The notes under the pieces are model-generated. The model did not search any database. It had not been told where the DNA came from and saw only the letters and a list, made by a program, of their open reading frames with translations. Source: Sphaerobacter sp. (lineage in GTDB: Bacteria; Chloroflexota; Chloroflexia; Thermomicrobiales; Thermomicrobiaceae). Taken from it: DNA of 64,000 nt. The stretch covers positions 1 through 64,000 of the forward strand of contig JASBVL010000027.1 in NCBI GenBank assembly GCA_029961075.1, written 5' to 3'. The position numbers and the translations under genes were made by a program. Each line of letters opens with the position of its first letter. Positions within the stretch are counted from its first letter, which is position 1. Shown here piece after piece: positions 11,478 to 62,625 of this stretch.

Positions 11478-11640
11478 TCATACGTGGTCCGTAGTGCGTG
11501 TTCCGTGGTGCGTATTGCGTGTTCCGTTCGTCTTCCCCTCTCCCCCTGTGGGAGAGGGGCCGGGGGTGAGGGGGACGAAACACGGACGACACACAACGTA
11601 GTGCTCAACACGGAATACGCACTACGCACTACGTGGGACG
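11478..11640. repeat. Heptad-repeat intergenic element, copy 1 (ilvN-ilvC spacer)
   Basis: Left arm: successive 7-bp units such as TCCGTAG, TGCGTGT, TCCGTGG, TGCGTAT, TGCGTGT. Core: CCCCTCTCCC facing GGGAGAGGGG. Right arm: complementary units ending GGAATAC, GCACTAC, GCACTAC. The whole is an imperfect inverted repeat inserted between ilvN and ilvC. Further copies lie at 27286-27440, 41538-41612, 57170-57375 and 62198-62245. Confidence 0.85.
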
Positions 11641-16933: not shown

Positions 16934-17010
16934 GGTGCCTCTAGCTCAATTGGCAGAGCACTGGTCTGTGGAACCAGGGGTTACGGGTTCAAGCCCCGTG
17001 AGGCACCCCA
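16934..17010 (+). tRNA. tRNA-His (anticodon GTG)
   Basis: A 77-nt tRNA with the extra G at -1 (16934) opposite discriminator C (17007), the histidine identity pair. GTGCCTC (16935-16941) pairs with GAGGCAC (17000-17006). The anticodon arm is CTGGT, loop CTGTGGA, ACCAG. CCA is encoded at 17008-17010. It begins 8 nt after rnpB. Confidence 0.97.
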
Positions 17011-27285: not shown

Positions 27286-27440
27286 CGTGTCCCCCTCTCC
27301 CCCGCGCCCCCCTCCCAGGATTGGGAGAGGGGGCAGGGGGGTGAGGGGGACACGCAATACGCACTACGCAGTACGCACCACGCACCACGCACCACGCAAT
27401 ACGCAATACGCAATACACAATCCGCACCACGCATCACGCC
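27286..27440. repeat. Heptad-repeat intergenic element, copy 2
   Basis: The clearest copy. A core with GTCCCCCTCTCC facing GGAGAGGGGGC and GAGGGGGAC (27288-27351) is followed by twelve consecutive 7-bp units from 27352: ACGCAAT, ACGCACT, ACGCAGT, ACGCACC three times, ACGCAAT three times, ACACAAT, CCGCACC, ACGCATC. Only the last two positions of each unit vary freely. One arm is present; the opposite arm seen in other copies is absent. The spacer 27260-27577 holds no gene. Confidence 0.9.
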
Positions 27441-28372: not shown

Positions 28373-28443
28373 GGCTCTCGCCCCGCGCTGGCCGAAACCG
28401 CCGGCCGGCGCGGGCGGCCAACCGTGCGGGGCCGCACGGAACC

Positions 28444-28648
28444 GGGCGGGTACAAGGCCCGCCCCTACCGGAGGAACGGCGCGCCGGTCGGGGCGGGGCT
28501 TGTCGAGCGGAGCACCGCCCGCAATCCCCGCGGGCGGGCACAAGGCCCGCCCCTACCGGAGGAACGGCGCGCCGGTCGGAGCCGGGTCTTGTCGAACGGA
28601 GCACCGCCCGTTATCCCCGCGGGCGGGCACAAGGCCCGCCCCTACCAC
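28444..28648. repeat. Tandem GC-rich repeat, ~88-bp unit
   Basis: Units start with GGGCGGG at 28444, 28532 and 28621 (period 88-89, third unit partial). Each contains ACAAGGCCCGCCCCTACCGG, then AACGGCGCGCCGGTCGG and GGAGCACCGCCCG. Single elements of this family recur at 32028-32175, 39137-39320, 41752-41890, 43688-43745, 55508-55650 and 62340-62515. The gap 28373-28804 has no gene. Confidence 0.8.
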
Positions 28649-41537: not shown

Positions 41538-41900
41538 TGCGTGATGGGTGAGATGCGTGTTCCGTAGTGCGTATTCCGTGTTGCGTGGTCCGTGTCCTCA
41601 GTGCGTGCGCGCTGGGCCGCGTGCCGCTGGCATGGGCCTCTCCTCCAGCGTCCGTCTCATCCGGCGTGTCTCCACCGTCTCTCCAGCGCGATCCCCCTCC
41701 AGCGCGCGGTCCTGCCAGCCTGAACGGCTCCGTGCGGGAACCGTCTTTCGGTAGGGGAGAGCCGTGTGCCGCACGGAGCTGCCCGCGTCTTAGTTAGGCG
41801 GGGACAAGCCCCGCCCCTACCGGTGGCTCGCGCCGAAGGCTTGCGGTAGGGGAGAGCCTGGTGCCGAACGGAGCCGCCCGCGCGCTCCCCGGCGCGAGCC
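41538..41900. repeat. Heptad-repeat arm (copy 3) and GTAGGGG-family repeats
   Basis: At 41552-41595 units TGCGTGT, TCCGTAG, TGCGTAT, TCCGTGT, TGCGTGG, TCCGTGT form one heptad arm with no facing arm or core. From 41751 to 41890, GGTAGGGGAGAGCCGTGTGC, then GGGGACAAGCCCCGCCCCTA, then a second GGTAGGGGAGAGCCTGGTGC are the GTAGGGG family. The gap 41502-41998 holds no gene. Confidence 0.75.
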
Positions 41901-57169: not shown

Positions 57170-57375
57170 GGACGTGAGGCGTGTTCCGTATTGCGCACTG
57201 CGTGTTCCGTGATGCGTGTTGCGTGGTCCGTGTACGGCGATGGTGTACTGCGTAGTGCGTATTGCGTACTCCGTGACCTCCCTCACCCCCGACCCCTCTC
57301 CCAAAGTTGGGAGAGGGGAGAAGACGGAACACGCACTACGCACTACGCAACACGCAGTACCCAATACGGAACGCG
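57170..57375. repeat. Heptad-repeat intergenic element, copy 4 (upstream of pdxS)
   Basis: Two-armed copy. Left arm units include TGCGTGT, TCCGTGA, TGCGTGT, TGCGTGG, TCCGTGT, and after a break TGCGTAG, TGCGTAT, TGCGTAC. Core: CCCCGACCCCTCTCCC facing GGGAGAGGGG (57290-57320). Right arm: GGAACAC, GCACTAC, GCACTAC, GCAACAC, GCAGTAC. It fills the gap between the MocR-like gene and the pdxS ribosome site. Confidence 0.88.
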
Positions 57376-57409
57376 TAACACGGACCCCGCACCAGAAAGG
57401 AGTCGTCCC

Positions 57410-58297
57410 ATGACCGTCGAGCACGCACCGTCCCGCACGAAGGCGGACGTGGCGCGATCGCTCACCGGCGGCGTCATCATGGACGTGGTGACGCCGGAGC
57501 AGGCGCGCATCGCCGAGGCGGCCGGCGCCCGCGCCGTCATGGCGCTGGAGCGCGTCCCGGCCGAGATCCGCCGCGAGGGCGGGGTCGCGCGCATGAGCGA
57601 CCCCGAGCTGATCCTGGCCATCAAGGAGGCCGTCTCAATCCCGGTGATGGCCAAGGTCCGCATCGGCCACATTGCCGAGGCGCAGATCCTCGAGGCGATC
57701 GGGATCGACTTCATCGACGAGAGCGAGGTGCTGACGCCGGCCGACGATCGCCACCACATCGACAAGCACGCCTTCTCGGTCCCGTTCGTCTGCGGCGCGC
57801 GGAATCTGGGCGAGGCGCTGCGGCGGATCGGCGAGGGCGCCGCGATGATCCGCAGTAAGGGCGAGGCCGGGACCGGCAACATCGTCGAGGCGGTGCGCCA
57901 CCTCCGCGACATCACCGACGACATCCGCCGCCTCCGGGCACTGCCCCGCGAGGAGCTGATGACCGCGGCCAAGGAGCTCGGCGCACCCTACGAGCTGGTG
58001 TGCACAGTTCACGAGACCGGCCGGCTGCCGGTGCCGCTCCTCTGCGCCGGTGGCGTGGCCACCCCGGCCGACGCTGCCCTGGTGATGCAGCTTGGCGCCG
58101 AGGGTGTCTTCGTCGGCTCCGGCATCTTCCTGTCCGAGAACCCGGAGCGCCGGGCGGCGGCGATCGTCGAGGCGGTCGCCCACTACCGCGACCCCGAGCG
58201 GCTGGCCGCCATCAGCCGCGGGCTGGGCGCCCCCATGCGCGGCCTGGACCTCCGGGAGATCCCACCCGAGCAGTTGCTCGCCGAGCGCGGCTGGTAA
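57410..58297 (+). CDS. pdxS: Pyridoxal 5'-phosphate synthase subunit PdxS
   Basis: Makes PLP from ribose 5-phosphate, glyceraldehyde 3-phosphate and ammonia supplied by PdxT. The 295-aa protein is of family length and nearly invariant: [60 protein letters not shown] with the catalytic Lys, [53 protein letters not shown] and [23 protein letters not shown] 57410 follows AGAAAGGAG. No pdxT follows; the next gene is a small HTH protein, so the glutaminase must be elsewhere. Confidence 0.97.
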
Positions 58298-62194: not shown

Positions 62195-62515
62195 GTTGCG
62201 TGGTGCGTGGTGCGTGCTTCGTGTTTCGTGTTGCGTATGCCGTCGTGTGGGCTCCGTAACGGCTGAGCGCTCGCCTGCCGGCCGCTGCCGTCTCTGTCGC
62301 AGACGTCGTCCCCGTGGCTGGCACGCGCCTCGGACATGCTGCCGGGCGGTGCCGGGCGGGCACAAGTCCCACCTCGACCGGCGTGGGGCGTCGGGCCGGC
62401 TGCGCGAGCGAGGTAGGGGAGGGCCTTGTGCCCTCCCGGGTCGGCAGTCGCCCCCGGGCCGTGGATCGGGGCAGCGCCGGGCGGGGACAAGCCCCGCCCC
62501 TACCGGTGGGGCCGC
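62195..62515. repeat. Heptad arm (copy 5) and GTAGGGG-family repeats
   Basis: Units TGCGTGG, TGCGTGG, TGCGTGC, TTCGTGT, TTCGTGT, TGCGTAT at 62198-62240 form a single heptad arm. GTAGGGGAGGGCCTTGTGCC at 62413 and GGGGACAAGCCCCGCCCCTA near 62485 are the GTAGGGG family. A weaker run of CGCACCACAC-like units lies at 62590. No gene is supported in 62110-62625. Confidence 0.75.
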
Positions 62516-62625
62516 GCTTGCGATGACGGGAATAGCGCTGCGCAGAATGGCGTGGAAGCGTCCGGAGAGGGATGCCTCCTGCACGCGCATCCCGCACCAC
62601 ACACCACGCGTGACGCATGACCCCC

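Follow-up and report, generated by a model that had tools for sequence, protein, structure and literature searches.

Outward heptamer arrays and a triplex-type core as a composite intergenic repeat in Sphaerobacter

In Sphaerobacter, dozens of intergenic gaps are occupied, from the stop codon on, by outward 7-base repeats, and these heptamer arrays usually point away from a known triplex-forming DNA motif (TM). The element is a genus-specific composite of two kinds of repeat which are both known, namely heptamer arrays (the arms) and the TM core, and the combination of the two with fixed junctions is apparently new. A literature search, which covered mainly papers outside subscription, returned no description of a composite core-and-arm element and only one string match, in an unrelated paper. 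As for the function of the composite element, there are candidate roles only.

The window, i.e. the whole stretch of 64,000 nucleotides that was analysed, belongs to a genome of 3.57 Mb in 131 contigs (G000), which was compared with its two congeners G001 and G002, the latter being S. thermophilus. Statistics were obtained from 0.8 Mb of G000 (chosen stretches plus the window); this sample was partly picked for holding matches, so that element densities cannot be read from it. An earlier note on this DNA had described runs of ACGCANN or its complement at five loci (11478, 27286, 41538, 57170 and 62198), and all five indeed carry them with the exact period of 7 that was claimed (Table 1). The proposed family of intergenic elements with 7-bp units is real and extends over the genome, since a scan of the complete G000 gave 190 exact (ACGCANN)x3 matches. 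With one mismatch allowed, the window contains 25 three-unit ACGCANN runs and its 100 dinucleotide-preserving shuffles contain none, so that such runs are more common than expected in shuffled sequence; a reversed-pattern control is uninformative for these runs because ACGCA reads the same backwards. If each unit is allowed one mismatch, the longest run in the window comprises 13 units and not 12, as counted before.

Table 1. Arms and cores at the five loci of the window (window positions)
Locus	Part	Position	Strand	Remark
11478	Left arm, 7 units	11481..11527	-	Continues as xCGTCAx units toward ~11459
11478	Full TM core CCCTCTCCC-CCTGT-GGGAGAGGGG-CCG-GGGGTGAGGG	11536..11572	+	
11478	Right arm	11573..11633	+	Abuts stop codon of ilvN-like gene (11650, minus strand)
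27286	TM-like core, extra pyrimidine block and GGGGTGAGGGG tail	27293..27351	+	
27286	Single right arm, 13 units, at most 1 mismatch each	27352..27440	+	
41538	Single arm, 6 units, without core	41554..41593	-	
57170	Left arm, two blocks (8 + 4 units)	57178..57274	-	Starts beside stop codon 57161-57163
57170	Full TM core	57280..57317	-	
57170	Right arm, 7 units	57324..57370	+	Ends shortly 5' of pdxS-like ribosome-binding site
62198	Left arm, 6 units, without core	62197..62236	-	
62198	Right-arm remnant (ACCACGCGTGACGCATGAC)	62591..62621	+	Other repeats between remnant and left arm

The period does not depend on the motif that was searched for. A motif-free search of the 0.8-Mb sample for periods between 1 and 15 bp detected 46 intergenic tandem arrays, every one of them of period 7 or 14; each of the 40 period-7 arrays contains ACG or CGT. 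When 478 units are read outward, the bases A, C and G are nearly fixed, as the earlier note had it for the whole of ACGCA, but base 4 is either C (359 units) or G (94 units), which makes ACGGA a common variant; base 5 is A in 438 units. Of the two last bases, both of which had been regarded as free, only base 6 is so, whereas A does not occur at base 7, which is T in 212 units, C in 190 and G in 76. Units in a distal position drift toward TGACGCA and contain CGTC on one strand. The arrays consist of 3 to 16 tandem units and are mostly intergenic (101 of 3731 array bp inside called genes), as is characteristic of heptameric intergenic simple sequence repeats. Adjacent units are identical at the two variable bases with a frequency of 0.277; when units are permuted inside their arrays, the frequency is 0.169 and does not exceed 0.209 in any of 500 shuffles. 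Such a resemblance of neighbouring units is to be expected from slippage that duplicates units locally.

The CCTCTCCC/GGGAGAGG core that the earlier note had assigned to these elements is present at 11478, 27286 and 57170, but absent at 41538 and 62198. In its form CCCTCTCCC-loop-GGGAGAGGGG-CCG-GGGGTGAGGGG it fits the published G/C-rich intrastrand triplex motif with one additional base pair per stem. This motif is given as 5'-CCCTCNCCCN3-6GGGNGAGGGN3GGGNGAGGG-3' in PMC4666352, where triplex formation in vitro is reported for the E. coli TM. Since the stems are one base pair longer in the Sphaerobacter core, the strict TMECO pattern CCCTCNCCC N3-6 GGGNGAGGG N3 GGGNGAGGG has no match in the 0.8-Mb sample. 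A relaxed pattern with a second loop of 3-5 nt, which is equivalent to 10-nt stems with a 3-nt loop, has 20 matches, compared to none in the mirror-image control and in shuffles. Judged by its sequence, the Sphaerobacter core matches a triplex-type motif.

The sample contains 41 elements, of which 24 are two-armed and the rest single-armed. Both arms point outward in all 24 two-armed elements, and so do 36 of the 37 arms near a core. Of the 41 elements, 19 have a loosely defined core no more than 120 bp away, and some further cores are interrupted by additional repeats. Among the 20 full cores, ten have both arms, two have one arm and eight have none, which means that core and arms are separable. 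In the window itself, the earlier count of two two-armed copies, with all others single, has to be extended, as the copy at 62198 additionally possesses the remnant of a right arm. There are also other repeats in and near these elements. A second repeat, GGGCGGGTACCCGCGTGCGGGTGCGG or its complement, is nested in the TM core at three sites of G000 (C13:2954, C13:66644 and C14:12786), and a second GC-rich family (CGGGCGGGCACAAGGCCCGCCCCTACCGG-like) forms an 89-bp tandem at 28443-28646 of the window, with related pieces inside the 62198 element (62340-62500).

The core-to-arm junction GGGTGAGGGGGACGNATGACG (at most one mismatch) occurs 56 times in G001, 56 times in G002 and once in G000, while it was detected neither in three other genera nor with the reversed pattern. 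The opposite junction, GAGAGGGGAG...ACGGAACACG, is present 11 times in 0.8 Mb of G000. Junctions that are fixed, but whose counts are specific for the lineage, argue for a joint spread or a joint homogenisation of core and arms, which differs from lineage to lineage.

The elements are not evenly distributed over the different types of spacers. According to gene calls made by a custom script, on which the spacer classes rest, spacers of at least 80 bp harbour an element in 15 of 67 cases between convergent genes, in 23 of 217 cases between tandem genes and in none of 105 cases between divergent genes (Fisher p = 2e-7 for convergent and 1e-4 for tandem, each versus divergent). The preference for gene ends and rarity between divergent genes are like those of the heptameric repeats of Xanthomonas. 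When position relative to gene ends was tabulated, as the earlier note had proposed, the outer end of an arm turned out to lie at the stop codon, with a median distance of -1 bp and 37 of 44 ends at most 20 bp beyond the stop, under an arm-extension rule that may run too far and enter the gene. Genes adjoining an arm use TGA as their stop codon in 31 of 44 cases compared to 310 of 596 others, which is a weak effect (Fisher p = 0.02). In the window, the 11478 copy is located between an ilvN-like and an ilvC-like gene and the 57170 copy precedes a pdxS-like gene that starts at 57410.

Four-unit runs are present in all three Sphaerobacter members. Of 58 other relatives, one has them, in the form of ACGCAGC and ACGCAGG arrays, and a survey of 400 genomes from the phylum gave 18 with such runs. 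Among the matches listed, named genomes with such runs belong to Anaerolineae, Gemmatimonadota, Desulfobacterota, Kiritimatiellota, Omnitrophota and others, and by reading we identified inverted ACGCA pairs without a core in four contigs of other bacteria (L157, L170, L173 and L196). In a member of the order to which Sphaerobacter belongs (G031, e.g. contig L089), long homogeneous ACGCAGC arrays occur, in contrast to the mixed arrays of Sphaerobacter. G000 contains 87 core-type hairpins, its congeners contain 170 and 110, and three genera elsewhere in the family have 40, 71 and 15; ACGCA arms were absent from the six core-bearing stretches that were read from one of these three genera (G005).

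Ten sites of G000 were compared by eye with those of G001 and G002. The element is absent from both congeners at C14:5010, C14:15775 and C13:76825, and it is present in all three species at C14:12385, C13:66644, C13:68659 and window locus 57170, the G001 copies at shared sites being in places incomplete or split at contig ends. The site corresponding to 62198 is two-armed without a core in S. thermophilus, and at that of 11478 the same species has a core-like hairpin which is short and degenerate. At the 27286 site both congeners lack the core, and all they possess is a short TGACGCA array close to the following gene. The arms at shared sites cannot be aligned beyond the unit, i.e. their sequences have turned over between species. 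Concerning the occupied and empty sites that the earlier note had suggested to look for, single-species sites do exist, but the divergence of the spacers is too high for insertion points or a clean empty site to be recognised.

We consider it somewhat better than an even chance (probability roughly 0.55) that these elements are a composite repeat of a TM core and slippage-driven arrays, which is tolerated downstream of genes and foldable at the mRNA 3' end. In this model, a dispersed non-coding repeat with an intrastrand-triplex/hairpin core would be joined to 7-bp arrays via the fixed junctions, and the arrays would become longer or shorter and drift in sequence through replication slippage, and would extend across the spacer up to a stop codon or ribosome-binding site. 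Copies would survive only downstream of genes, possibly because divergent promoter spacers are intolerant of them, and transcription from either side would allow the 3' end of the mRNA to fold into a long, rod-like hairpin. Slippage is the probable cause of the arrays, but slippage alone explains neither the retention of ACG across species despite turnover nor the outward symmetry. New copies might arise by recombination or gene conversion between copies or by means of a putative trans-acting enzyme, and the host might benefit, for instance, from a bidirectional protection of mRNA 3' ends.

The folding of the elements could also be taken to mean that they are a family of terminators or functional RNAs, with arms selected to pair into a long hairpin that works in both directions and terminates or protects mRNAs. 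The folds are strong indeed, with z-scores versus shuffles of -6.2 (DNA) and -7.5 (RNA, other strand) for 11478-11640 and of -9.1 (RNA) for 57170-57396, and the location after stop codons and between convergent genes, with no copy in divergent spacers, would be in line with such a role. However, strong folds follow from inverted arrays and may be no more than their by-product. The complementarity of arms from the same element does not robustly exceed that of arms from different elements, neither by duplex energy (p = 0.11 in the own genome and 0.45 in G001/G002) nor by ungapped matches (p = 0.02 and 0.53, respectively). Selection for one precise hairpin is therefore unsupported, as is recent inverted copying as a rule, and a hairpin kept by covariation of the arms was rejected. 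Moreover, many copies are one-armed, no U tract was seen, and no element of the window matches Rfam 15 above the gathering score, the sole match there being a tRNA (16935-17007). Closely similar E. coli TMs had neither promoter nor terminator activity in earlier work that is cited in PMC4666352. Altogether, a functional RNA family is rather unlikely.

It appears improbable that the triplex core acts as a replication-stall site that itself drives the outward growth of heptamers, in which case the element would be self-extending, would spread and would fill 3' spacers without any transposase. We are equally doubtful about a non-autonomous element of the REP/REPIN type, which a RAYT (TnpA-REP) tyrosine transposase would mobilise via the core hairpin. 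GTAG- or CGTC-tagged REPs, REPINs and RAYTs (PMC3733652) resemble the Sphaerobacter elements in being palindromic, dispersed and intergenic, and the latter are 3'-intergenic, hairpin-bearing and variable between species. G000 has four partial Y1-transposase matches, one of which is a RAYT above the curated NCBIfam cut-off (C47, 102.8 bits). Yet no element or TM adjoins any Y1-transposase gene in the ten stretches examined. The single Y1 match in G001 and likewise that in G002 is of the IS200/IS605 type and below the RAYT cut-off, while the junction still reaches its 56 copies in each. No GTAG or GGAG foot of the core palindrome, nor any other tag, was established, and the arms are simple repeats. 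A RAYT-borne REP was thus rejected for want of any flanking relation between repeat and RAYT. In the window's genome, the gene of a REP-associated tyrosine transposase at L271:894-1577 (minus strand; NF047646, 102.8 bits) has no recognised partner repeat beside it.

Still less probable are putative binding sites for a DNA-binding protein that would recognise the word YACGSA and serve in regulation or in organising the chromosome. This word is strongly kept at a fixed step of 7 bp, at many loci and in three species, but with such a step each site is rotated around the helix by about 240 degrees relative to the one before, arrays range from 3 to 16 units, and the elements lie downstream of genes, with none in divergent spacers. 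A CRISPR is rejected since the units are contiguous without repeat-spacer order, and a coding repeat is excluded by the period of 7 together with the intergenic position.

The earlier statement that the elements differ from CRISPR, classical REP and IS-type MITE structures holds as far as tested, but both of their ingredients are of known kinds: PMC4666352 and PMC4692102 describe the TM core and heptameric repeats, respectively. According to the latter, Xanthomonas and Nostoc contain the heterogeneous heptameric intergenic repeats GGGANTN and GGGGA(C/T)T, which come closest to the Sphaerobacter arrays among known repeats. Each Xanthomonas genome has them at more than 100 dispersed loci, with 70 and 75 inverted pairs in two species. 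Xanthomonas GGGANTN and the Sphaerobacter arrays share the period of 7, a partly degenerate unit, inverted pairs, the location near gene ends and the rarity between divergent genes, and the sites in Xanthomonas, mostly shared between species with varying length and sequence, can be likened to those reported here. In contrast, the Sphaerobacter unit is NYACGSA and not G4-forming, about half of the elements possess a TM core and fixed TM-arm junctions, and the arms reach the stop codon. With the TMECO/PIT motif, Sphaerobacter shares the intergenic, multicopy core CCCTCTCCC-loop-GGGAGAGGG-loop-GGGTGAGGG. In the part of its description that is accessible, TMECO is reported from proteobacterial genomes and heptamer arms are unmentioned. 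Further 7-bp direct repeats at many loci are the heptanucleotides of Calothrix, TAACTGA of Beggiatoaceae and the elements of Geobacter metallireducens, which form families of four or five tandem heptanucleotides (PMC4692102, PMC4679880 and PMC2700814). These differ in sequence from the Sphaerobacter repeats, a triplex core is unreported in the accessible text, and TAACTGA in most cases immediately precedes a start codon and almost always forms direct repeats.

Published work states that heptameric repeats are over-represented in bacteria, that a link to polymerase slippage is speculative (work cited in PMC4692102 and PMC4679880) and that their origin is unexplained (PMC4692102). With ACGCA sites masked, a period of 7 was found in 40 of 64 other tandem arrays on 79 contigs from many phyla (L122-L201 except L162), which had been selected for an ACGCA run and are not an unbiased survey; the dominance of period 7 in this selection suggests a general mutational or selective cause. 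These other arrays have many different units, which drift along the array. The three Sphaerobacter species offer dozens of orthologous and species-specific arrays with or without a triplex core. Since both kinds of arrays occur in related species, a growth of arrays driven by the core is directly testable.
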